Below, one piece after another: positions 10,901-59,900 of a stretch of DNA of 64,000 nucleotides; within the stretch, counting starts at the first letter, position 1, and each line of letters starts with the position of its first letter. Source of the stretch: Patiria pectinifera. Lineage: Eukaryota > Echinodermata > Asteroidea > Valvatida > Asterinidae. The translations under genes and the position numbers were made by a program. The stretch is from contig CM057147.1 of NCBI GenBank assembly GCA_029964075.1, positions 18,125,513 to 18,189,512 of the forward strand, in the 5' to 3' direction. The notes below the pieces were generated by a model, which made no database searches, was not told where the DNA came from, and saw only the letters and a list, made by a program, of their open reading frames with translations.

Positions 10901-13900
10901 CTCCAAAATCTGTTACTTTAAAATACAAAACTATGGGCTCGTGCGCCAACAAAAGAGGGCGCATTTTTACCACCTTTGAGAGCCTGTGGACGGGACACAC
11001 AGCGTGTGCGTACTGTACTCGTTCGCCGGCGAAGTACGCACGACTTATTTATCCTGAATGTGCCAAAGCTAAGCCACGGCGTCTTCGTGTGAGCATCAGG
11101 CTTCATCGGTGCGCGAATGCATTCATCTATACATTTTGATGGTCTCCCAGACCAGTCCCCGTCCCTTATTACGATGGATACATTCGAAGTTCACGATGGA
11201 TGGACCGGGAACCAGTCTAAGCCCCCCCCCCCCCCAACTCTCCTTTTCTGGCCGTTGAAGGGATACTTGTGCACGGAGCCCATAGTAATGGGCACTGGGA
11301 ATATTAGTAATGCACACATCAGGTGTTAAAGGAGCTATCCTGTATCGTTGCGGTAACACCATGTGGTGATAACTACTGTTTAGAAGATATTTAGTTCTGA
11401 AAAGATTTTGTCCTGCTTATTATCAACTTTCGCTAAGTAGTTTTTGTTCTGATAAGAACAGTCCTGCTTTAAGTTCCAAAAGAACTTGTCTTAGAACTTA
11501 AAGCAGGACTGTTCTTATCAGAACAAAAACTACTGAGCGAAAGGTGATAATAAGCAGGACAAGTTCTTTTCAGAACTAAATATCTTCTAAGCAGCTCTAC
11601 CGCAAACTGAAACGATACCGATACTCCACCATGCAAAGCCTCAGAGCTATCCTGTGTTTTGTATTTTTGAATTTCTCAGTCGGATGCTTTCAGTAAAGTC
11701 TTTGATGAGATAGCCAGCAGGGAGGGAGTCAGGAGAGCTTGTGTCCGGCTGACCAGAAACGGACAGGATGTCAGTGAGTTTGACACGCCACGTTCCATGG
11801 ACTTGCACATCGCTGATATCATCGGTGAGTGACGTAAATGGGCAAGTGCACAATTCCTTGCAGGACACTTTTTGGCACCCTTTCATTGTCATTGAGCAGC
11901 TACAGTTTTTTTTTCTCCATAATAATTCATCTTGCTGTTTCACATTTTTGTAAATGCGAAGCCAACAGGGCTTCCGTGAAGAAAGTGGGGGTGGGGTAAG
12001 GGTGGGGGAGTGTGGTAATGTGGTACATGTACAGACACGTTTGTTTATGGTGTAAATCGAGGATTTTCATTTGTTCCTCTTCCCTTTTCCTTTGTTTATA
12101 CTCTAACTTTTTCGCAACAGCTCTCATTGGTTTTGTACACGTTTTCCAACCGAGGAGTCCTCGATTCGGTTTCTGTCCTCGATTAATCGATGATGTTGCA
12201 CGTGTGTGTCCTCGATTTACACCATAAACACGCACATGTACACACTTTGACTTTTATTGTTGGCATATAAAACACCAACCCCTACACCTTGGCACATCAT
12301 CCTAAATCCTGATCCCCTTCCATCATGCCCATGCCCAACCCTACCTTCAGCCTGCCTTCAGCCTTCGACAGCGAGCCATGGCGGCTTCCCCGTTCTAGTC
12401 TTGCACCTGTGCCGTAGTCATCACATGAATGAATATGATGTACATGTATTTAAAGGGAAAATACAACATTTGCAAACATCAAAAAATAAAACTACCAAAT
12501 CATTTTGAAATACCTTGCTGGACTGTTAGTGAATGACAGTGTAAAGCATCCTGTAAAATCATGGCACCTGGTATACTGTCATTTTCAAGAAAAGTGGTAT
12601 TTTTGTATCAATTTCCAACGCTGATCAGTCAATCAGCGTTGGAAAAAACTGGCTTTTTTCAAATACTGGCCCCAATTGACCATCGCACTTGTTTGCAATC
12701 GATTACACACCTATGAACGGGTACAAGCCAGCTAGCCTGGTTCCCTGACCTTACAATTCCCCAATGTATGTAAACTGATCTGTTGCTTCTAATATGGAGT
12801 CAGGGAACCAGACTACAGGAAAATGATCGTTTTTCTTGGTTTTTATAGCATTTTCGAACCCAAAACCTCAAAAAAGTCAGTGAAACTATATTTGCTATAT
12901 TTTTCCAACCCCCCAATTCCATCCATTTCTGAAAATTACAGCAAAAGCAAATGATGTATATTCCCTTTAATGCGAATTTCTGTCAACTTGCCTGAAGATT
13001 TTTCCGTGTTTAGACATGTATTTTAAACAGTGCATCTTATGCTTTTCTTCAAATGCAGACTGTCTGATTGTCGAGCCGGAAAGTGTGGTCACAGCTCCAG
13101 AACAAATTGTGGAAGTGACCATTCAAGGACTGGAGAAGAAATCCACAAGGACCACCACAATACGCAGGGTAAGTAAGCTACTCAAGCTCAGTAAATATTG
13201 CAAGATTTCTGCAAACAGAAAATAACTGTTCAAATTTTAAGAATTCCAAATTGGCTGAGGAACCTCAAACTGTTACGCACAGAAAGCTCCATGGCATATA
13301 TAATCTTACAATATAATGCAGTTGAAATTGCCTGTGAATTCTCGGCATCCTTGTGATCCTTGACCTGTGATTGGCTTGCGATAACTTGGGGTTGACTTGT
13401 GAGAACTTGTGAATGACTTGTGATTGACTTGTGATAGCTTGTGATTGACTTGTGATTGACAATTGATAACTTGCGACTGACTTGTGAGAACTTGTGAATG
13501 ACTTGTGATAACTTCTGATTGACTTGTGAGAACTTGTGATTGACTATTGATAACTTGGGATTGACTTGTGATAACTTGTGATTGAATTGTGAGAACTTGC
13601 GATTGACTTGTGATTGACCTGTGATTAACCTGTGATGAGTTGTAATTGACTTGTGATAACTTGTGATAACTTGTGATTGACTTGTGATAACTCGTGATTG
13701 ACTTGTGATAGCTTGTGATTGACTTGTGATTGACTTGTGATTGACTTGTGATGACTTGTGATGACTTGTGATTGACTTGTGATGACTTGTGATTGACTTG
13801 TGATTGACTTGTGATAACTCGTGATTGACTTGTGATAACTTGTGATTGACTTGTGATAACTTGTGATTGACTTGTGATTGACTTGTGATGACTTGTGATG

Positions 13901-14349
13901 ACTTGTGATGACTTGTGATTGACTTGTAATTGACTTGTGATAACTTGTGATTGACTTGTGATGACTTGTATTTGACTTGTGATGACATGTACATGAATTT
14001 GAATTGTGATAACTTTTGATAACTTGTGTTTGACTTGTAAATAACTTGTGATTGACTTGTGATAACTCGCGATTGACTTGTGATAACTCGTGACAACTTT
14101 TGATTTGACATCTGGTGACTAGTTACTGACTTGTGATGACTCGCCTACAACTTTGACAAACCAATCTGATGTTTTCCCTTCCAGAATGACAGCTTGCAGA
14201 CACTAATGGAGGAGTATAGCACATTCTGTGGCCAACCCCTGCATAGAATCAAATTCACCTTTGACGGTGATGTCATCAGGCCAGTGGACACGCCCACATC
14301 GCTGGATTTCGAGGAGGATACAAACACCATCGATGCCATATTCATGTAG
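4985..14349 (+). CDS. NFATC2IP: NFATC2-interacting protein (NIP45)-like, tandem SUMO-like domains
   Basis: RAD60/Esc2/NIP45-type nuclear protein, a SUMO-pathway adaptor in other organisms. Eight exons: 4985-5032, 6749-6893, 7683-7824, 9570-9695, 10361-10571, 11680-11824, 13059-13168 and 14185-14349. All have GT-AG borders and matching phases, giving 363 aa (the human protein has about 419). The basic and acidic N terminus contains two candidate SUMO-interacting motifs, PIYLDSDDEES (about 99-109) and IAIIDVDSS (about 190-198). SUMO-like domain 1 spans about 205-277 (ITVKVRSR...RFPLQM...ADIIDCLIV). Domain 2 spans about 289-363 and ends in IDAIFM with no C-terminal diglycine, as expected for this non-conjugated family. 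An in-frame ATG at 4952 would add 11 residues; 4985 has the better context (AACATGG). Introns hold many mobile elements, and tandem repeats follow the stop at once. Confidence 0.88.
6162..6683 (+). mobile_element. TTAA-flanked hairpin MITE, copy 1
   Basis: Ends AAAGGGAAAATACAA...GCAAATG...CCCTTT with TTAA/TAAA borders. The centre holds a perfect 28-bp palindrome (6333-6360, CCAACGCTG...CAGCGTTGG). A second inner inverted repeat is built on TGGTTCCCTGACC / GTCAGGGAACCA words. Sits in NFATC2IP intron 1. Confidence 0.8.
6985..7325 (+). mobile_element. TTAA-MITE, copy 2, truncated
   Basis: Carries the left-end ATACAACATTTGCAAACAT, a degraded central palindrome (GGTCGGCCGAC) and the GTCAGGGAACCAGACTAC block. 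It lacks the right terminus. Sits in NFATC2IP intron 2, 300 bp after copy 1. Confidence 0.7.
7455..7625 (-). mobile_element. tRNA-derived SINE
   Basis: On the minus strand: GTTGGTGCAGTGGTTCA (A-box-like) and CCCGGGTTCGATTCCCGCC (B box), followed by a unique tail with GGGTTTTC words. Confidence 0.6.
7897..8180 (+). mobile_element. tRNA-derived SINE with (TTA)n tail
   Basis: TGGCTTGTGCGTAAGCGCTC (A box) and CCACGGTTCGAATCCTGG (B box) are followed by a body of about 170 bp and a TTATTATTATAATATTATTA tail. Best-preserved SINE of the window. Sits in NFATC2IP intron 3. Confidence 0.75.
8522..8745 (+). repeat. Dispersed repeat E, copy 2
   Basis: Shares ordered blocks with the inverted copy at 31118-31340: AACTCAACCCATCAAAG, GGGATAGGTACAGTACCCCT, GGTTGGCATACCTCCAGAA and CTGGGGAGTTAGGGTTAAG. 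No coding capacity. Confidence 0.7.
9728..9795 (+). mobile_element. Possible degraded tRNA-derived SINE
   Basis: AAGTGGTCAATACCTCATTG and TCGTCGGTTCCAATCTC stand at A/B-box spacing. Weak; it lies just downstream of NFATC2IP exon 4. Confidence 0.3.
9893..10262 (+). repeat. Dispersed repeat D, copy 1
   Basis: Built around repeats of GGAGGATTTTGCAGGATTG. It shares the order of blocks (GTCAAGGTCTTAGGCC, GAAATCCTCCGCACTGC, CAGTGGTCACCCCTCC) with 31640-31990 and the inverted 26098-26445. Sits in NFATC2IP intron 4. Confidence 0.75.
11332..11625. mobile_element. Foldback MITE in NFATC2IP intron 5
   Basis: Arms of about 100 bp meet near 11482. The left arm runs GAAGATATTTAGTTCTGAAA...AAGCAGG-type words to AAGTTC, and the right arm is its reverse complement to about 11591. 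The inverted similarity continues outward at lower identity to TATCGTTGCGGTA / TACCGCAAACTGAAACGATA. Confidence 0.8.
12020..12246. mobile_element. TIR MITE in NFATC2IP intron 6
   Basis: Inverted ends of about 38 bp with small gaps: ACATGTACAGACACGTTTG...TTATGGTGTAAATCGAGGA against TCCTCGATTTACACCATAA...CACGCACATGTACAC. No coding capacity. Confidence 0.7.
12454..12966 (+). mobile_element. TTAA-MITE, copy 3, full length
   Basis: TTAA on both sides (12450-12453 and 12967-12970) and ends AGGGAAAATACAACATTTGC / CCCT. The central palindrome is CCAACGCTGATCAGTCAATC...CAGCGTTGG. Sits in NFATC2IP intron 6. Confidence 0.85.
13362..14150. repeat. Minisatellite of TTGTGATTGACTTGTGATAAC-type units
   Basis: About 790 bp of tandem ACTTGTGATTG / ACTTGTGATAACTTGTGATG words, fuzzy at both ends, filling most of NFATC2IP intron 7. 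It creates a long, meaningless open frame on the minus strand. Confidence 0.92.
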
Positions 14350-19187: not shown

Positions 19188-19346
19188 CAATAGGCCTGAG
19201 ACCTAATGACGTCATGCTTTACTTACATGTGCACTTTCCTATGTAGTAGACGGTCCCTACATTGTCTGGCGTCCTAACTTCGCTCCCATAGGAAAGCGCA
19301 TATGTAAACAAAGCCATTACATTATTAGGTCTTAATTAGGTCTATT
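19188..19346. mobile_element. MITE A, copy 1 (uninterrupted)
   Basis: Ends AATAGGCCTGAGACCTAATG and AATTAGGTCTATT with an inner inverted TTACATGTGCACTTTCCTAT / ATAGGAAAGCGCATATGTAA. Includes a TGACGTCA octamer. The relative at 39286-41023 carries a 1.6-kb insertion at the position just after GACGTCA. Confidence 0.8.
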
Positions 19347-27000: not shown

Positions 27001-30000
27001 CTCTTTGGACGCTACGCGCGCTGCTGACGCTGACAACGCAGCACAGCATGCATTTGCACACAACATGATCCTAACATGATCCTAGTATTTCCTTAGTATT
27101 CATGGGCCCAGTACTTTTTTTTGGCCATGGCTGAATGGGAGCATGGACAATGTCATGTGATTTGAGTTCCACCAATCAAATGACGAGGATCTGTATGTCG
27201 GTTATATAAAACCGAATTGACATACATGTATTTCACATTTTGAAACAGAACTCAGCTTTTGGGGAAACACTATGAAGTGTGCAGAAAAAGACAAACAAAA
27301 CACATACAAATTAAATAGTTCCATTAACAATTTCAATAGCACTCCGCACTAATGACGTCAATTTTGCTCCGCGCCGTACGCGCGCATACTCAGACAAACT
27401 TTCGAACAATCACGCGCGCACTGGCCGCACACATTGCATAGAAACGGTGCTGCAAGCGTGCGCGTAATCTTCACGTGAGTAGCTCGTACAGCATGTTTGT
27501 CTGAGATCTGGGTACTTGCTTCTATTCTTAACATAAGTGCCGAGTGCTATTCCATTGTAAACATGTGTAACAAAAATGTCAAGAGCGCCCTCTAGTGAGG
27601 CTACTCTGCCCAATGTCACCTCCGACCCCTCACCTTTCACCATGAGCGATGGTCTCCACCTTGTAGGACTCGGCCTCAGCCGGCCGCTTGATGGTGGCCA
27701 CCAGTTCACGCTCCTTGCGTTCAATCTCTTTCTCCTCGATGTCGATGAGTTTTCTCCGTTCCACGACCTCGATTTCGATTTCCTCACTACGGATCAGCTG
27801 TTTGACCTTGGCGGCCTGAAGCTCATAGGCCAGCTCGGCCTCGGCTTTCTGGATTCAAATTCATCGATACAGGCGATAATGAGATTAAGGAGATCAATTT
27901 GATCAATACATTGATTTATGCGATCAATACAGGCAACCAATTGGCAAATATATTGTTCATCGCTGGGAACAGCATAAGAGATAATGGGCGCTCAAAAGTT
28001 GCTCATATGGATCAATACAATTGAGCATCTGGATTAGAGTGTCTTTCACTAGGAACTGGACAAATTCCATCAAAATCCATCAATCACTGTACGTCCAATA
28101 CAAAACTGTACATGACAAAATGGAATCCACCACTGACGCACTGGTTGACATTCGTGGGCTTGCTACACATGGCTTTTATCACAATAGCAGTAAAGGAAGC
28201 TAGGCAAAATCAATCCGATACCCTTAGCACTGCTTCAGGCCATTAGGCCCAAGTCCATCATACTCCATCAATATTTAGTCACGGCGGGCCTTCTAGCTGG
28301 ACCAAGTCCCCCAAAATCCACCAAAATGGGGAGAATGGATTTTGCTGGAGTTGGGGTGGTTGGATTAAGGTGATTCGTGGGATCAATAACAGTGGTAAAA
28401 GAGATACATATACCTGATCAACAGGATCAATATGGCTGATGAATGAGATCAATGGATCAATATAGGTAAACATATGTCATCAATATTACCAATACCAGAG
28501 AGAGCTATGGGATCAATACATTTAACCACAGGATTAATTGAGTGATCAATGGGATCAATACCAGTTATCAATATGATCAATACAGGCGACTAATTGGATT
28601 ATTTCTGCATGCCCAATACTAATACCGAGTACTCATGCATCATTCACAGGATGCAGCAACGGACAGAAATGCAATATTTACTCCAAGCCTTTACGTTCCA
28701 CTACACCCTAAAAGTCACTTGACCCACCTTGGTGTTCACTTCAGCTTGGAAGCCGGCTTTGCTCATCTGAAACATACGGGCCGAGTCGGCAATCTTGGTG
28801 TCTGCGTCAAACTTGGTGTCCATCATGACCTTCTCGCATTCAGCTTCCTGCAGAACGTCGTGAATAGAGACAAGTGTCAACACTCTCAAACAGTGTCACT
28901 TTTGAAAAGTTGATCATATGTCCAACATTCTAATAAGCCTCTGTACTGATGACGTCGCACTTATGTTTACGTGTGTGCTTTCCTATGGTGCTCAGTGGAC
29001 CGTGGGCCCCCACTGGCTCCATAGGAAAGTGCACATGTAAACAAAGTGTGATGTCATCAGTACAGAGGCTTATTCTTGCCAAGCAAAGTCAGTCTTCAGC
29101 CGATATGGCCCAGCAGGCCCAAGTTTATGTCCGGTTTCTGTGGCATGAAAATATTTCTATTCCCTCTGGATGGGATGCCAGTCCAGCGCAGGTTACTCCC
29201 CAGCTAATGCCGGTGTAGTGTGAATACCCGACTCCATGAAATGTGGACTCATCTTTTAGGATCGTTTTGGAGAGTGACCTGTCACAGTCGGATTTTCATG
29301 TGACACCGGCACCACTATATACTCCTGGGTGGAGAGAGGCAAGTGGGGGTGAAGTGGCTTGCCCAAGGACACAACACATGGCCAGCAGCTGGATTTGAAC
29401 CCCTGACCCTCTGATCAGGAGACACGAACCCTAACCACTAGGCTACACTGCCCCTGATTCTTGCCAAAATTTCATAAAATTGACTTGGGTTCCCGAAGAT
29501 CGGCAGGGTTCCAACACAAGTGTGAAGATGCCTAAACAATGACTATTATAAACTAGAGGTCTTGTCTGTTTGAGAACAGAACATATTTATAGGGTTTTTC
29601 CGCATTATGATTTTTTATGGGTTTGTGCTTTTTTTGACAATGTGCAGTCATGTGAATAATAATTTCGTGTACAAAGTGCATTTAATGTAAACATTTTACT
29701 AGTAGCCAAGAAATATAAAAGTTTAGACATTTATCCAAAATCAGTTGATAACGGCCTCTTGACATCATTTCAACTCTTGCATACTAGCAACATTATCTAC
29801 CTTCCCACCAAGTTAAATGACGATCACACCTACATGTACCCTACTACCCTTACATGTTTTAGTTTTTATTCTCAATCACATTTTGAAGAAGCTATGATGA
29901 CCTCACACATTTTTCACATTTTTGTGCAAACATCTGACCTAACAAACCTATTACAAAAGGATTTTGGATTTAGCATGTTGCGATAATCTTAAAAATTTCA

Positions 30001-39092: not shown

Positions 39093-39272
39093 CAGTGCAG
39101 TGGCGTAGCCACGAATTTTTCAGTGGGGTGGGGGCGCTGTGGGCTGGAACATTTCATGGGGGGGCGTCATGTAGATTAATGATAATTTTTTTAGAAACTC
39201 AAAATCTCAGTGGGGGGAGGGGGGCGACTGGGGGGCGACAAGGTTCCCCCCCCCCCCTTGGCTACGCCACTG
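39093..39272. mobile_element. hAT-like MITE with 8-bp target duplication
   Basis: Flanked by CATCTACA on both sides (39085-39092, 39273-39280). Ends CAGTGCAGTGGCGTAGCCA / TGGCTACGCCACTG-type. The G-rich and C-rich interior has no coding capacity. An 8-bp duplication and CA-G ends are typical of hAT. Confidence 0.85.
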
Positions 39273-39285
39273 CATCTACATGTCA

Positions 39286-41023
39286 AATAGACCTAAGAAG
39301 TAATGACGTCACTACGAAAGCCCTGTAGTGCCATCAAGTATATATTTTGTCCAAGTTCGTTTTTACGAGATTTTTTTTCTCGAAGTTCGTTTTTACGAGA
39401 TTTTTTTTCTCGAAGTTCGTTTTTACGAGATTTTTTTTCTCGAAGTTCGTTTTTATGAGATACATTTTCTCGAAGTTCGTTTTTATGAGATACATTTTCT
39501 CGAAGTTTGTTTTTATGAGATACATTTTCTCGAAGTTCGTTTTTATGAGATACATTTTACGGAGTTACGGAGTTTTATGAAGTTACGGAGCCCCTAAAGG
39601 GACATCCAAAATTATTTTTTTATCTCGTGCGCACGACATAATATCTCGTGCGCACGAGATAATTATCACGTGCGCACGACATATATCTCGTGCGCACGAC
39701 ATAATATCTCGTGCGCACGACATACATCTCATGGAATGTCGGACACTTCGCCCCATTTCCACGTCGCCCCATGTCACTTCGCCCCTAACCACATCGCCCC
39801 ATCCCCACTTCGCCCCAATTCCACTTCGCCCCATCCCCGCTTCGCCCATCCCACTTCGCCCCATCCCCGCTTCGCCCCATCCCCACTTAGCCCCATCCCC
39901 ACTTCGCCCCATGTAGATTGGTATTGTCGTTCTCAGATAAGTGGGAGACGGGTTGGTATAGCCGGGTTGGGAACAAAGTTGGATCTTTTACTTCAAGCTT
40001 TTTTTCTCGGTAGGGGAGAGTGATAGCTTGAGAGGTTTGTTATGAATTGTTCATTTGGTCAATATTGGTGGGCTAATTCTTTCCGTTGGTTAGCAATTAG
40101 TGAATCTGTTGGAATTGTTTTTAAGCCAATAAAATACATTTAGATGAAATTTTTTTACATGTAAAAGCTGGGGCGAAGTGGGGATGGGGCGAATTGGGGA
40201 TGTGGCGAAGTGAGAATGGGGCGAAGTGAGAATGGGGCGAAGTGGGGATGGGGCGATGTGGGGATGGGGCGAAGTGGGGATGGGGTGATGTGGTTAGGGG
40301 CGAAGTGACATGGGGCGACGTGGAAATGGGGCGAAGTGTCCGACATTCCATGAGATGTATGTCGTGCGCACGAGATATTATGTCGTGCGCACGAGATATA
40401 TGTCGTGCGCACGTGATAATTATCTCGTGCGCACGAGATATTATGTCGTGCGCACGAGATAAAAAAATAATTTTGGATGTCCCTTTAGGGGCTCCGTAAC
40501 TTCATAAAACTCCGTAACTCCGTAAAATGTATCTCATAAAAACGAACTTCGAGAAAATGTATCTCATAAAAACGAACTTCGAGAAAATGTATCTCATAAA
40601 AACGAACTTCCAGAAAATGTATCTCATAAAAACGAACTTCGAGAAAAAAAAATATCGTAAAAACGAACTTCGAGAAAAAAAATCTCGTAAAAACGAACTT
40701 CGAGAAAAAAAATCTCGTAAAAACGAACTTCGAGAAAAAAAATCTCGTAAAAACGAACTTCGAGAAAAAAAAACTCGTAAAAACGAACTTCGAGAAAAAA
40801 AATCTCGTCAAAACGAACTTCGAGAAAAAAAATCTCGTCAAAACGAACTTGGACAAAATATATACTTGATGGCACTACAGGGCTTTCGTACGTCACACTT
40901 TGTTTACATGTGCGCTTTCCTATGTAGTAGACGGACCCCACTTTATCTGGCGTCCCAACTTCGCTCCCATAGGAAAGCGCATATGTAAACAAAGCCATTA
41001 CGTCATTACGTCTCAGGTCTATT
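39286..41023. mobile_element. MITE A, copy 2, split by a foldback element
   Basis: Left part 39286-39312 (AATAGACCTAAG...TGACGTCAC) and right part 40891-41023 (CGTCACACTTTGTTTACATG ... CTCAGGTCTATT) together match the intact copy at 19188-19346. The 39313-40890 element sits between, with CGTCAC duplicated. Confidence 0.82.
39313..40890. mobile_element. 1.58-kb hierarchical foldback element
   Basis: The terminal repeats TACGAAAGCCCTGTAGTGCC / complement continue as inverted arms of about 600 bp (left) and 720 bp (right) around a spacer of about 257 bp (39914-40170). Each arm has, from the outside in: a 30-bp tandem array (7 units left, 11 right), a unique ACGGAGTTACGGAG block, five or six TCTCGTGCGCACGA(C/G) units that are themselves palindromic, and a minisatellite of CACTTCGCCCCATCCC units. 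The CGTCAC duplication (39307-39312, 40891-40896) marks insertion. No transposase; all ORFs are artefacts of the repeats. Confidence 0.9.
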
Positions 41024-45498: not shown

Positions 45499-45559
45499 CA
45501 GTGGCGTAGCCAGGAATTCGTCCCCCCCCCCCCCCACGCCCCCCGTGGCTATGCCACTG
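45499..45559. mobile_element. Tiny hAT-like MITE (61 bp)
   Basis: Ends CAGTGGCGTAGCCA / TGGCTATGCCACTG around a C tract. Flanked by AGCCGTTA (45491-45498) and AGCCGGTA (45560-45567), an 8-bp duplication with one mismatch. Confidence 0.75.
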
Positions 45560-45971: not shown

Positions 45972-47415
45972 TATAGGTTTTCCCGTCCAATTTCGCACTT
46001 AGTGCATACAAAAGTATAAATAGTTCATTCAATTTTGCTATAGGGCAACCAAAAATTCAAACTAGTCATTCAAAATCGCCATAGGGCAGTCAAAAAAGAA
46101 AAACAGTCATTCAGAATCACCATACGGCAGCCAAAAATTCATAATTGGCATTCAAATTCGCCATAGAGCAATCAAAAGTGTAAAAGCAACATTCAGATTC
46201 GCCATAGTGCATTCAAGATAGCACGGAAGGACACGTGACTGAAGATAGAGCATTCAATTTCGCCATTGGGTATTCATGTTCATAACTAGTGCATTAAATT
46301 TTGCACTGTATTTACATGACTTGTATACAGTCATACATATTCAAATATTCTTTGCGCGATTTTCCCAACCTGCAATATGTGTGCCACCAATGACCATTCA
46401 TAAAACTTCACTGGACAATTTACATTTTTTTTTTACAGATGCCCGGACTTCGATAATTGTATTTGTTTTGTCTCCTAGAGGTGAAATGTAAATTATAGAA
46501 GCATTGGCCTGCTTATATTGCGCAAGTTATTTTGTTCCTCACCAGCGCCTTGGCGCAAATTGTATATATATTTCTTTCATCTCCTTTGGTAATGCATTCT
46601 TTGCATTTCACCTTTTGGTTTCCACATATAGTTATCAGCAGCTTTAGAATTTACATTGGCAGACATTACGCAATTAACATCAATTGTTACACATTCCTTT
46701 TCCTCCAAATGTACTGTGTATATTGGGTTAAATTTTAGAAAGGTATACATGCTATGTTTTATGTCTCTAGTCAATGCATATAATTGAAGAGATGGTGCAA
46801 ATGACCACAAGAAAATATACATTATGAAAGAAAATTTACAAAGCTAAAAAAAAAGGCATATAAATTAACAGAGGAAAATGTAAGAAAATTTTCCCCATGT
46901 TAATTCATATGCCTTTGGGCCATCCGATAAATATGATTTTTATTCGGCGACTTAATATAGACAAAGTAAGCTCATAAAGTGGAAGAAGATATAAACATTA
47001 GAAAGCTATAAAAAAAAATAGAAAAAAAATACATGTGCTAAATTGGATGCACAAATTGTATAATTGGATGCCCTATGGCGAAATAGAATGCTCTAACTTA
47101 GCTCGAGGGGGTTTCAAGGGCAAACTTGGTTGCACTATGTACGAATTCGTATGCCGATTGGCGAATTTGGTTGCCCTACAGCGATTATGAATGCCAATTG
47201 GCCATCTTGGCTGCACTATAGCGAATTTGAATGCCGATTGGTGATTTTGGCTGCCCTATAGCGAATTTGAATGCCGATTGGTTATTTTGGCTGCCCTATC
47301 CGCGAAAATTGAATGACCTATTTATACTTTCTCATGCATTATGTGCGAAATTGAATGACCTATCTTTACTTTTGCATGCACTAAGTGCGAAATTGGACGG
47401 GAAAACCTATATTTG
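45972..47415. mobile_element. 1.44-kb foldback element with subterminal tandem repeats
   Basis: Ends ATAGGTTTTCCCGTCCAATT / complement, continuing about 300 bp inward as degenerate tandem units built on ATTCAAATTCGCCATAGGGC (left) and GCCCTATAGCGAATTTGAAT (right). The AT-rich interior has no coding capacity. Confidence 0.8.
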
Positions 47416-56969: not shown

Positions 56970-59900
56970 ATGGCCTACCAGTCACCGAGCAAACGAGCTG
57001 CTGCGTCGTCTAGAGCGGCCGGTGTGTCGGTTAAAGCTCAGCCTGTCAGGTAATACTGCTTCGTTTTCAGATTGATTAGATCTTACTAACTTACTTCTTA
57101 GAATTCAGCAGATTGTGTAGTTTAAGGACACCTAAGTTCTTGAAGTGTTTTTACATTTTATCGTTCTAAAATGACTTTTGCAACTTAAGCAATCTTCTTT
57201 AAGCTCTAAATAAAAGCCAAGTTTTCATGATAAGGACTTTCATGGTAATATGCGCCATCTTTACCGCCGGGCAATTTTACACGCGTTGCTGTGTATGCAT
57301 CGTCATTGGAAAGCTTTGGCGCTTCCAAGTCATCATGCGTTCGTTCCAAAATGCGCCCGCGTCTAGCAACGCGTGTTCTTTTTGCCCTGCGAACAAGATG
57401 GCGCATATTACCGTGAAACGCCTTTTCAACAGTAACAATTCTAAAATGACCTTTGCAACCTCAAGCAATCTTCTTTAAGTTTGTTTTCATAATATTCAGC
57501 AGCAGTACTGTGCGCATCATCAAAGTCCAGCGAAGTCACAGCACACTGCAGCCTGCACTAAACTAGCCCCACTAGTGTGGCCGTCGGTATGCTGCGCTGA
57601 ACCTCTAGCCACACACCGTGGTCCGCGCACTACTGAGGACGTTTTCATAAATTTTGCAGGGAATTTCTTACATATGGTTGTATTCTACGATGTCCCATCT
57701 ATCACTTCTGGGATGCTTGGATGTAATGATGTTCAATTTTCCGAGATATTCTTGAATCTTTCTGGAGCCCATATGCACTCGTGAAACGTCTGGTGATGGC
57801 AGCCATTTTGAATGTGACAAGAGATGACCTCAAGCTGTGACGTCGCGTTTATGCAAATTGCTTGTCGAGCGAGGGCGCGAGTTGCAAAGGCAACGGCTGT
57901 TTTCTGTGCCGTGGATCCTGAATAGAGATCAGTGCACGTGGCCCCCCAGACGATAAAGGCATGGTACAGGAAACAGGTGTCGCTTTTGCAACTCGCGCCC
58001 TCTCTCGACAAGTAATTTGCATAAACGCGACGTCACAGCTTGAGGTCATCTCTTGTCACAATCAAAATGGCTGCCATCACCAGACGTTTCACGAGTGCAT
58101 ATGGGCTCCAGAAAGATTCAAGAATATCTCGGAAAATTGAACATCATTACATCCAAGCATCCCAGAAGTGATAGATGGGACATCGTAGAATACAACCATA
58201 TGTAAGAAATTCCCTGCAAAATTTATGAAAACGTCCTCAGTAGTGCGCGGACCACGGTGTGTGGCTAGAGGTTCAGCGCAGCATACCGACGGCCACACTA
58301 GTGGGGCTAGCACTAAACATGCTGAAGCCGTTTGTATTGCGCAATCGAATTGTCATGTTTTATCCCGTAATTTCACTCCAAAATTAAATCATTGCCATGT
58401 CTGTCATGTCTCCACCAAATGTATATAGGCAGCTACAATTTTGTTGGAAACAAATAGAGTACACGTATGTATTGTCTGTTATTGTATTTGCAAAATATAT
58501 TGCAAATGTATGGATGAAAGAAGGGAGGCAGACTGGACAAGGGAAGTGGATGGGAAGTCTTGGGGAAGAGAAACAGATTTAATTTGGTTTCTTTGCCTTA
58601 TGCTCATGACTTCGTGATTGGAGCTACCCGGTAGGGTTTGCCAAGCTAAGGCCAAAAAAAAAAAGTCTCCGGTTTCTGGTATGGAGCTTGCCCCAAAAGT
58701 GGTGCGGCGACGCGGCTTTTTTTTTTTTTTTACCTGTTTTTTTTTTTTTTTTTGGCTTCAAATGTCGGCTGATGACTGCAAATGGTGCCCGACTAAACTT
58801 AGTGCAAATATATGGGAGTCCAGAGAGGCCACATAAATCTTATTCTCGATCATAACCCCATCTAAAAACACGTTAAAATTGTGCAGCAGCAGAATTCCAG
58901 TCAAATCAGTGAGTTTGGTGGTTTTGAAACATCATCTTGTATTGAAAAAAAAACTTTTTCATTTTGCCGACGCGCATGGCTACGGCGACGCGCGCGCATA
59001 CCAGAAACCGGAGACTTTTTTTTTTGGGCCTAAGTGGTGACCCAGACGATAGTTGTGTGCTTTGTACTGTACATGTATTTGATAGTGACAGTGTGCCTTA
59101 CGTACCTGGGTCGTTCCACAAAGTTGAGATACAAAGTGTGACATTGGGGTCAAATTTTCAAATTGCTTGTACAAGTTTTGTTTATGCATTTTTTGATAGC
59201 CCATACATTGTGGTTTAACAATTCTTTCAAATTTAAGTCACATGATTTTGGAAAGTTGGTAAATTTGTACACAATATATAGTTACATGTAATGACTATGG
59301 AGAAGTTGTGGATGTAACCGGAAGCCACGTTACATCCAAACTTTGTTTTGTTCATAATTAATACTTCAAAATGCTTCAAATTCACACCAAACTTGAGTTT
59401 ATCATCAAATAGCTTCATTTAATAATAGCCATACTTGAATTCTTAAAAGACTGCTAAAATTGTTATTTCCAACAACAACAAAAAGTAATGGTTGTGATGG
59501 ATGTAACATGTGGGACAACACTACATCACAATGAGGTATTCTTCACCTCGATATGAATGGAACTAAATGTTGCTTGTGTTTAGAAATGTTGTCCCCAAAT
59601 CTCTGTTTCAAGGGCAATTGCAGATTGCAGATTGCAGGTCATGATTTTCATACTTATTTTAGGCATGACCATGTCAACCGGTTGTGGATGTAACACGGAC
59701 ACCATGTGCCCACAGGCATTCATAGATTTTGTTCATATTTGGCCAAAACATTTATTTGCATAGACTATGATCACAGTATTTTACAAATACCAGTTCAATC
59801 ATGAAATATTGGGGTCAATTCGACCTAAATTGCTGCAAAAAGAAAACTTTGCACTGTAAGCCAGTTGTGGATGTAACATACATGTAATATGAAACAAGGG

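Follow-up and report, generated by a model that had tools for sequence, protein, structure and literature searches.

A Patiria pectinifera foldback transposon with nested terminal repeats that likely belongs to the IS3EU type

What moves a DNA element that is built from two long, inverted, internally repetitive arms and in which no transposase is seen? This question is raised by a locus in a 64,000-nucleotide stretch of the Patiria pectinifera genome (hereafter the window), for which the original prediction described a 1.58-kb inverted repeat and proposed that palindromic words repeated in its arms could be clustered binding sites for an unknown recombinase. Indeed, positions 39313 to 40890 form a single inverted-repeat element of 1,578 bp, to which no strand is assigned and whose two ends are exact. 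Its outermost letters are TACGAAAGCCCTG at the left and CAGGGCTTTCGTA at the right, giving TACGAAAG...CTTTCGTA ends with CGTCAC on either flank. The longest exact reverse-complement match between the arms spans 287 bp (39509 to 39795 with 40287 to 40573), versus at most 17 bp for exact inverted matches within 4 kb when the window was simulated 50 times with an order-1 Markov model. The features that define the foldback structural class, which are long inverted arms containing tandem repeats with at most a small middle, were checked and are present, with arms of 601 and 722 bp placed around a centre of 255 bp.

From the outside inward, each arm consists of a 40-bp tip, an array of 30-bp units, a short TACGGAGT-repeat stretch, five 21-bp palindromic units, and a 16-bp minisatellite. 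The left tip (39313 to 39352, plus strand) and the right tip (40851 to 40890, minus strand), when the arms are compared, are identical at 40 of 40 bases. The left 30-bp array (39353 to 39558, plus strand) holds seven units, three of the ACGAGA type followed by four of the ATGAGA type, and the right array (40531 to 40850, minus strand) holds 11, seven of the ACGAGA type and four of the ATGAGA type. The mini-hairpins within the 30-bp unit are real but modest, as a DNA fold of positions 39340 to 39560 gives a z-score of −2.46 and 2 of 200 shuffled sequences fold at least as well. A repeat search with unit counting locates the five palindromic units of the GTGCGCAC type per arm at 39621 to 39724 (plus strand) and 40358 to 40461 (minus strand); the core CGTGCGCACG is kept in all 10, and two of them, one in each arm, are full 20-bp palindromes. 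Innermost lies the minisatellite (CACTTCGCCCCATCCC), with 10.8 copies both at 39744 to 39913 (plus strand) and at 40169 to 40338 (minus strand). The unit numbers and subtypes, the palindromic arrays, the hairpins, and the position of the minisatellite therefore are as originally described.

The similarity between the two arms is uneven. Over 481 aligned columns of their outer parts, 2 substitutions separate the arms, apart from an additional 121 bp of units; in the inner minisatellites the count is 14 substitutions over 119 columns, with 3 gap columns besides. The nonrepetitive centre (39914 to 40168, plus strand) is present in 33 of the 42 copies of the element that we examined, including the copy in the window, and in the other 32 it matches at 95 to 100% over 203 to 258 aligned columns.

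As originally noted, no transposase is seen in the window copy. Long open frames run across the arrays; we rejected these as evidence of genes. The frames over the 30-bp arrays are open on both strands because 30 is a multiple of 3. A comparison of a window open reading frame with PDB sequences gave no matches. The ratio of observed to expected CpG is 1.59 in the element and 3.64 in its left 30-bp array, compared with 0.77 in the window, and perhaps the element is young or unmethylated. Elsewhere in the window, frames with LLC1, STELLO, and Band_7 matches were observed, and positions 13366 to 14141 (776 bp) are a minisatellite built of TTGTGAT-type units, in which periods of 21, 32, 53, and 74 are nested. 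A second foldback of 748 bp, with nearly perfect arms of 373 nt, lies at 57563 to 58310. Its flanks allow a duplication of either 7 bp (CACTAAA) or 9 bp (GCACTAAAC), the latter of which we take to be suggestive of a Mutator-like element. Arrays of about 40- to 41-bp units at 46018 to 46206 and 47142 to 47315 have consensus units that look by eye like inverted relatives, and these are perhaps another array-armed foldback.

The flanks of the element reveal how it came to its present location. The sequence CGTCAC occurs directly on both sides (39307 to 39312 and 40891 to 40896, both plus strand) as a 6-bp target-site duplication. When the foldback and one CGTCAC are removed, the rejoined flanks form a small palindromic MITE, whose left tip lies at about 39301 to 39312 and whose remainder spans 40897 to 41020 (plus strand). 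Bases 1 to 129 of the 136 rejoined bases tested align without gaps, at 90% identity, to an uninterrupted paralogue at 19204 to 19332 (plus strand), and a second, more diverged uninterrupted copy is present at 28949 to 29046 (plus strand; 72% over 109 columns). Thus, the foldback is a transposon insertion that interrupts a MITE, and the combination of target duplication and uninterrupted paralogues establishes the junction as a true target site rather than an assembly join. Neither this duplication nor the paralogous empty sites were part of the original prediction. Just left of the foldback, at 39100 to 39275, is a separate MITE-like stretch with GTGGCGTAGCCA and TGGCTACGCCAC ends, to which short partial matches occur at 45499 to 45559.

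The original prediction had called for a search of the source genome, and this search returned a large family. In 613,548,705 bases on 1,020 contigs, among them contig C19, which includes the window, the 20-bp terminus occurs with at most one mismatch at 175+164 places (control, 0+0), and the unit TCTCGTGCGCACGA occurs 805+803 times (reversed control, 1+2). Among the matches listed, which comprise 100 termini on contigs C1 to C10, 42 pairs face each other and 16 ends lack a partner. The 42 copies examined here, out of these 175+164 termini, are 41 of the 42 listed pairs together with the window copy. An exact 6-bp duplication flanks 34 of the 42, with one mismatch in 3 and three or more in 5. 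The 34 exact duplications include duplicated loci and represent 32 distinct sequences, and offset controls yielded 1 in 546. With both strands pooled, the 34 sites lean toward the target TG-NNWWNN-CA, with T at position −2 in 35 of 68, G at position −1 in 30 of 68, and A or T at each middle base in 57 of 68. The outer tips are uniform because the search selected for tips with at most one mismatch. In collections of genome contigs and viral contigs, the 20-bp palindrome had no matches, nor did the tip or a 19-base stretch of the 30-bp unit in viral contigs.

Comparison of the copies modifies one further claim, namely that an arm had expanded or contracted only in the outer subtype of unit. Unit number does change in this manner in the window copy, but across the 42 copies both subtypes vary, ranging per element half from 0 to 30 for the ATGAGA type and from 0 to 16 for the ACGAGA type, and the numbers of palindromes and 16-bp units also differ between halves. 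These counts allowed up to 2 substitutions per unit, demanded an exact palindrome core, and split each copy at its midpoint, a cut that misses the arm boundary wherever a copy has foreign inserts.

Gene conversion within a copy was considered as the cause of the near-identical arms and found to be unsupported. Both arms could be identified in 34 of the 42 copies, and among these, arm identity is 0.927 within copies and 0.924 between copies, random re-pairing of arms reached 0.951, and in 0 of 68 cases was an arm's nearest neighbour its own partner. For the inner 115 bp (33 copies), identity is 0.952 between left arms, 0.928 between right arms, 0.868 between left and right arms, and 0.867 within copies. 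On average, left arms from different copies are closer here to one another than to right arms, so the inner 16-bp repeats appear to have diverged before the insertion in the window, and the left/right asymmetry of this minisatellite is probably ancestral. The 190 bp around the palindromes (61 arms) exhibit no left/right split, the corresponding values being 0.923, 0.978, 0.941, and 0.942. Judged from these comparisons, there is no sign of recent homogenization within copies.

A candidate source of transposase emerged from a feature that the original prediction had not recorded, a 24-bp terminal repeat (TACGGAGCCCCTAAAGGGACATCC) embedded in the left arm at 39584 to 39607 (plus strand) and in the right arm at 40475 to 40498 (minus strand). 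Letter for letter, the same sequence terminates a 13,081-bp element at C1:5754634-5767714 (L081+L082), standing at one end as TACGGAGCCCCTAAAGGGACATCC and at the other as its reverse complement. This 13.1-kb element has TACGG..CCGTA ends and a 6-bp duplication, CAGGAG. Directly inside both of its ends are arrays of the same 21-bp palindromic units, with 23 GTGCGCAC cores in the two arms. Its minus strand includes an open frame of 292 amino acids (stop to stop) that matches the Pfam model rva_4, "Integrase core domain," with E = 3.7e-22. A second minus-strand frame, which is probably a further exon, matches the transposase pieces of a foldback copy (L039) at 97 to 100%. Frames on the plus strand look like cargo, and one of them matches a HECT ubiquitin ligase (3.1e-9). 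No THAP match was found in the two transposase frames scanned, and a comparison of a transposase piece with PDB sequences gave one match, to an unrelated enzyme at E = 0.11.

The inner repeat is a general feature of the foldback family, as 36 of the 42 copies have it in both orientations with at most three edits. In the window copy, the outer terminal repeat lies some 270 to 390 bp outside the inner one. The outer tip TACGAAAGCCCTGTAGTGCCATCAAG aligns from its first base, without gaps, to the inner repeat and the bases that follow at 17 of 26 positions and at 26 of 40 over 40 bases. The former match, for which the length of 26 was picked by eye, is reached by 6 of 200,000 shuffles and at 2 of 124,730 window positions.

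Several copies document insertions among these elements. L039, a 5.2-kb copy with outer tips, was a candidate for an autonomous foldback and the sole one of the 42 paired copies examined with a match to the transposase pieces inside the element. This candidate was rejected. Its transposase sequence was brought in later by a relative of the 13.1-kb element that has suffered deletions (98% over 3.5 kb); this relative inserted into the right inner repeat of what was already a foldback copy and is flanked by a separate duplication, TTTAGG. The transposase pieces are in different frames, so the gene of that copy is not intact. The foldback copy L078 is inserted within sequence similar to the second transposase frame (44 to 46% identity), from which we conclude that one element landed in the gene of a relative. 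About 4 kb of foreign DNA lies within L040. In L046 the outer arms are present but the inner part is not, and other repeat DNA fills the interior. By eye, the interior of this foldback copy (L046, 234 to 1103) resembles a tRNA-derived short interspersed element located where the palindromes would be. The original prediction had advised looking for a full-length element with the same ends and a transposase; no copy joining the outer tips (TACGAAAGCCCTGTAGTGCC ends) to its own transposase was found among the 42 paired copies examined, and two of the 16 unpaired termini, traced inward for about 4.7 kb, led to no second tip and no transposase match.

We consider it probable that the element is a non-autonomous cut-and-paste DNA transposon of the IS3EU type, with nested ends, that is moved in trans. 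Judged from sequence features, the foldback family likely belongs to IS3EU, and the transposase of the 13.1-kb element is likewise likely of this type given its rva_4 match, its ends, and its duplications. The recombinase, which the original prediction had left unknown, would then be an integrase-like DDE transposase, to which the 6-bp duplications, the TA..TA ends, and the 13.1-kb element with its shared inner repeat and arrays all point. Such an integrase-type transposase of the 13.1-kb lineage, or of a sister lineage, would bind the outer tips and mobilize the foldback. The palindromic 21-bp units are predicted to be subterminal binding or enhancer sites for the transposase, a reading suggested by the fact that they also adjoin the terminal repeat in the transposase-bearing element. 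Arm lengths may shift through slippage or unequal exchange in the arrays. More tentatively, and with somewhat less than even confidence, we propose that the ends were renewed outward, such that the old repeat stayed intact inside the arms, a new and diverged repeat arose beyond the 30-bp array, the same transposase lineage could use either pair, and the 21-bp units are its clustered candidate binding sites from the autonomous element.

Several other explanations were weighed against this one. In one, an older, unrelated element was invaded by an IS3EU MITE, which now forms the inner part. In its favour, the inner repeats are full-length versions of the very sequence in which an independent mobile element ends, nested insertions are known in the family (L039, and L040 with its foreign DNA), and the outer arms of L046 exist without the inner part. 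We nevertheless judge this improbable. In 27 copies having a single exact match to the 11-bp start of the inner repeat in each orientation, in none do the inner repeats lie between direct 6-bp duplications, and in 14 the 12 bp adjoining them on the outside repeat each other exactly in inverted orientation, as parts of the arms. These two observations fit an outward extension of the arms better than an inner insertion. The notion that the whole structure is an inversion created by the assembly at a contig join, a worry expressed in the original prediction, has in our estimation a negligible chance of being correct. Near-perfect large inverted repeats can in general be misassembled, but here one arm has four more 30-bp units than the other and 16 substitutions distinguish the two, the flanks show the target duplication and a paralogous empty site, and 41 further copies, the majority having the same arrays, were read elsewhere.

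It is improbable that the element is instead a foldback of another superfamily, Mutator-like or P/Galileo-like, which gained IS3EU arms by recombination and moves by a transposase of its own that has escaped notice. Most foldbacks are said to be Mutator elements and Galileo is a P element (PMC4079207, PMC3573991, as far as their accessible text goes), and 0 of the 42 examined copies combine outer tips with a transposase. Against this, the duplications are exactly 6 bp in 34 of 42 copies, as opposed to the 8 to 10 bp given for Tetris and the 7 bp given for Galileo in the text available, and the outer tip has TA as its first two bases and can be aligned to the inner tip, which is of IS3EU type. 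A different proposal concerns the arrays alone, which might be a site for a host protein (a replication origin, an insulator, or a silencing target) that rides with the transposon. The elevated CpG ratio of the element relative to the window and the GTGCGCAC core conserved in 10 of 10 units are compatible with this idea. We regard it as unlikely, because the arrays are situated directly inside the terminal repeat of a transposase-bearing element, as expected of subterminal transposase sites.

The window element can be compared with several known systems. Sea urchin TU elements are foldbacks whose outer arms contain short tandem repeats and which make 8-bp duplications, and we know of no link between them and IS3EU. 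A foldback from a sea urchin is mentioned in the accessible part of the report on Tetris (PMC4079207). Tetris of Drosophila virilis, as portrayed there, resembles the element in being a non-autonomous foldback with arms of flanking, tandem-repeat, and inner domains, a variable repeat number, and a noncoding middle, and it exemplifies the foldbacks for which the transposase often is unknown. It differs in its 8- to 10-bp duplications (6 bp here), its suggested Mutator origin, and its units of about 220 bp, and the same available text mentions neither palindromic units nor an embedded second terminal repeat. Galileo, according to the portions of its descriptions at hand (PMC3573991, PMC3688188), likewise has long, internally repetitive arms with unit numbers that can be unequal between the arms of one copy, and some of its arm repeats carry tested transposase-binding sites (PMC3688188), which is a precedent for such sites in arm repeats. 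It is a member of the P superfamily with 7-bp duplications and a THAP-domain transposase, in contrast to the 6 bp and the two THAP-free frames observed here. Dada elements, from the text accessible in PMC3706591, make 6- to 7-bp duplications, lack terminal inverted repeats, and insert in small RNA genes, whereas the window element has long terminal inverted repeats and sits in a MITE. The 6-bp duplication length of Polintons fits; these have a large coding interior, and none of the 7 frames of the 13.1-kb element that were scanned gave a Polinton-type match.

The closest correspondence is with IS3EU. Its families have TA..TA ends and usually 6-bp target duplications (PMC10045372), and a set of fungal families has TAYGG..CCRTA ends (PMC12730594), as stated in the sections available of both papers. 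The 6-bp duplication is seen in 34 of the 42 copies, in the 13.1-kb element, and in its nested deletion derivative; TA..TA termini are seen in the outer TACGAAAG..CTTTCGTA and the inner TACGG..CCGTA pairs, the latter agreeing with TAYGG..CCRTA. The transposase of the IS3EU/GingerRoot superfamily (PMC10045372, PMC12730594) is an integrase-core DDE enzyme related to IS3/IS481; the rva_4 frame of the repeat-sharing 13.1-kb element is a candidate for such an enzyme, and no such frame is seen in the window copy. The outer tip conforms in its TA..TA, its 6-bp duplication, and its TAYG, and departs at the fifth base. A Repbase rule (PMC4455052, from the part accessible) expects non-autonomous copies to have the same duplication length and at most one mismatch in positions 1 to 11; between the outer and inner tips there are three (positions 5, 7, and 8), a count that applies to this one inner tip. 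The accessible IS3EU descriptions (PMC10045372, PMC12730594) include no foldback with long arms, terminus inside terminus, or palindromic subterminal arrays, and IS3EU-related satellite-like repeats are described in available text for a beetle (PMC5844308) and an oyster (PMC8268682). No account of an IS3EU foldback was recognized in a literature search beyond whose reach lay Repbase and most subscription journals, a text search of papers for the motifs gave 0 hits, and we do not claim a first report. What the present analysis provides is a link between a foldback family with many copies and an element of the same genome that bears a transposase, the two having an inner terminal repeat and palindrome arrays in common. 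This opens to testing the questions of whether the arrays bind transposase and whether new ends can be acquired outside old ones. If our reading holds, foldback architecture would extend from the Mutator and P superfamilies to an integrase-like one.
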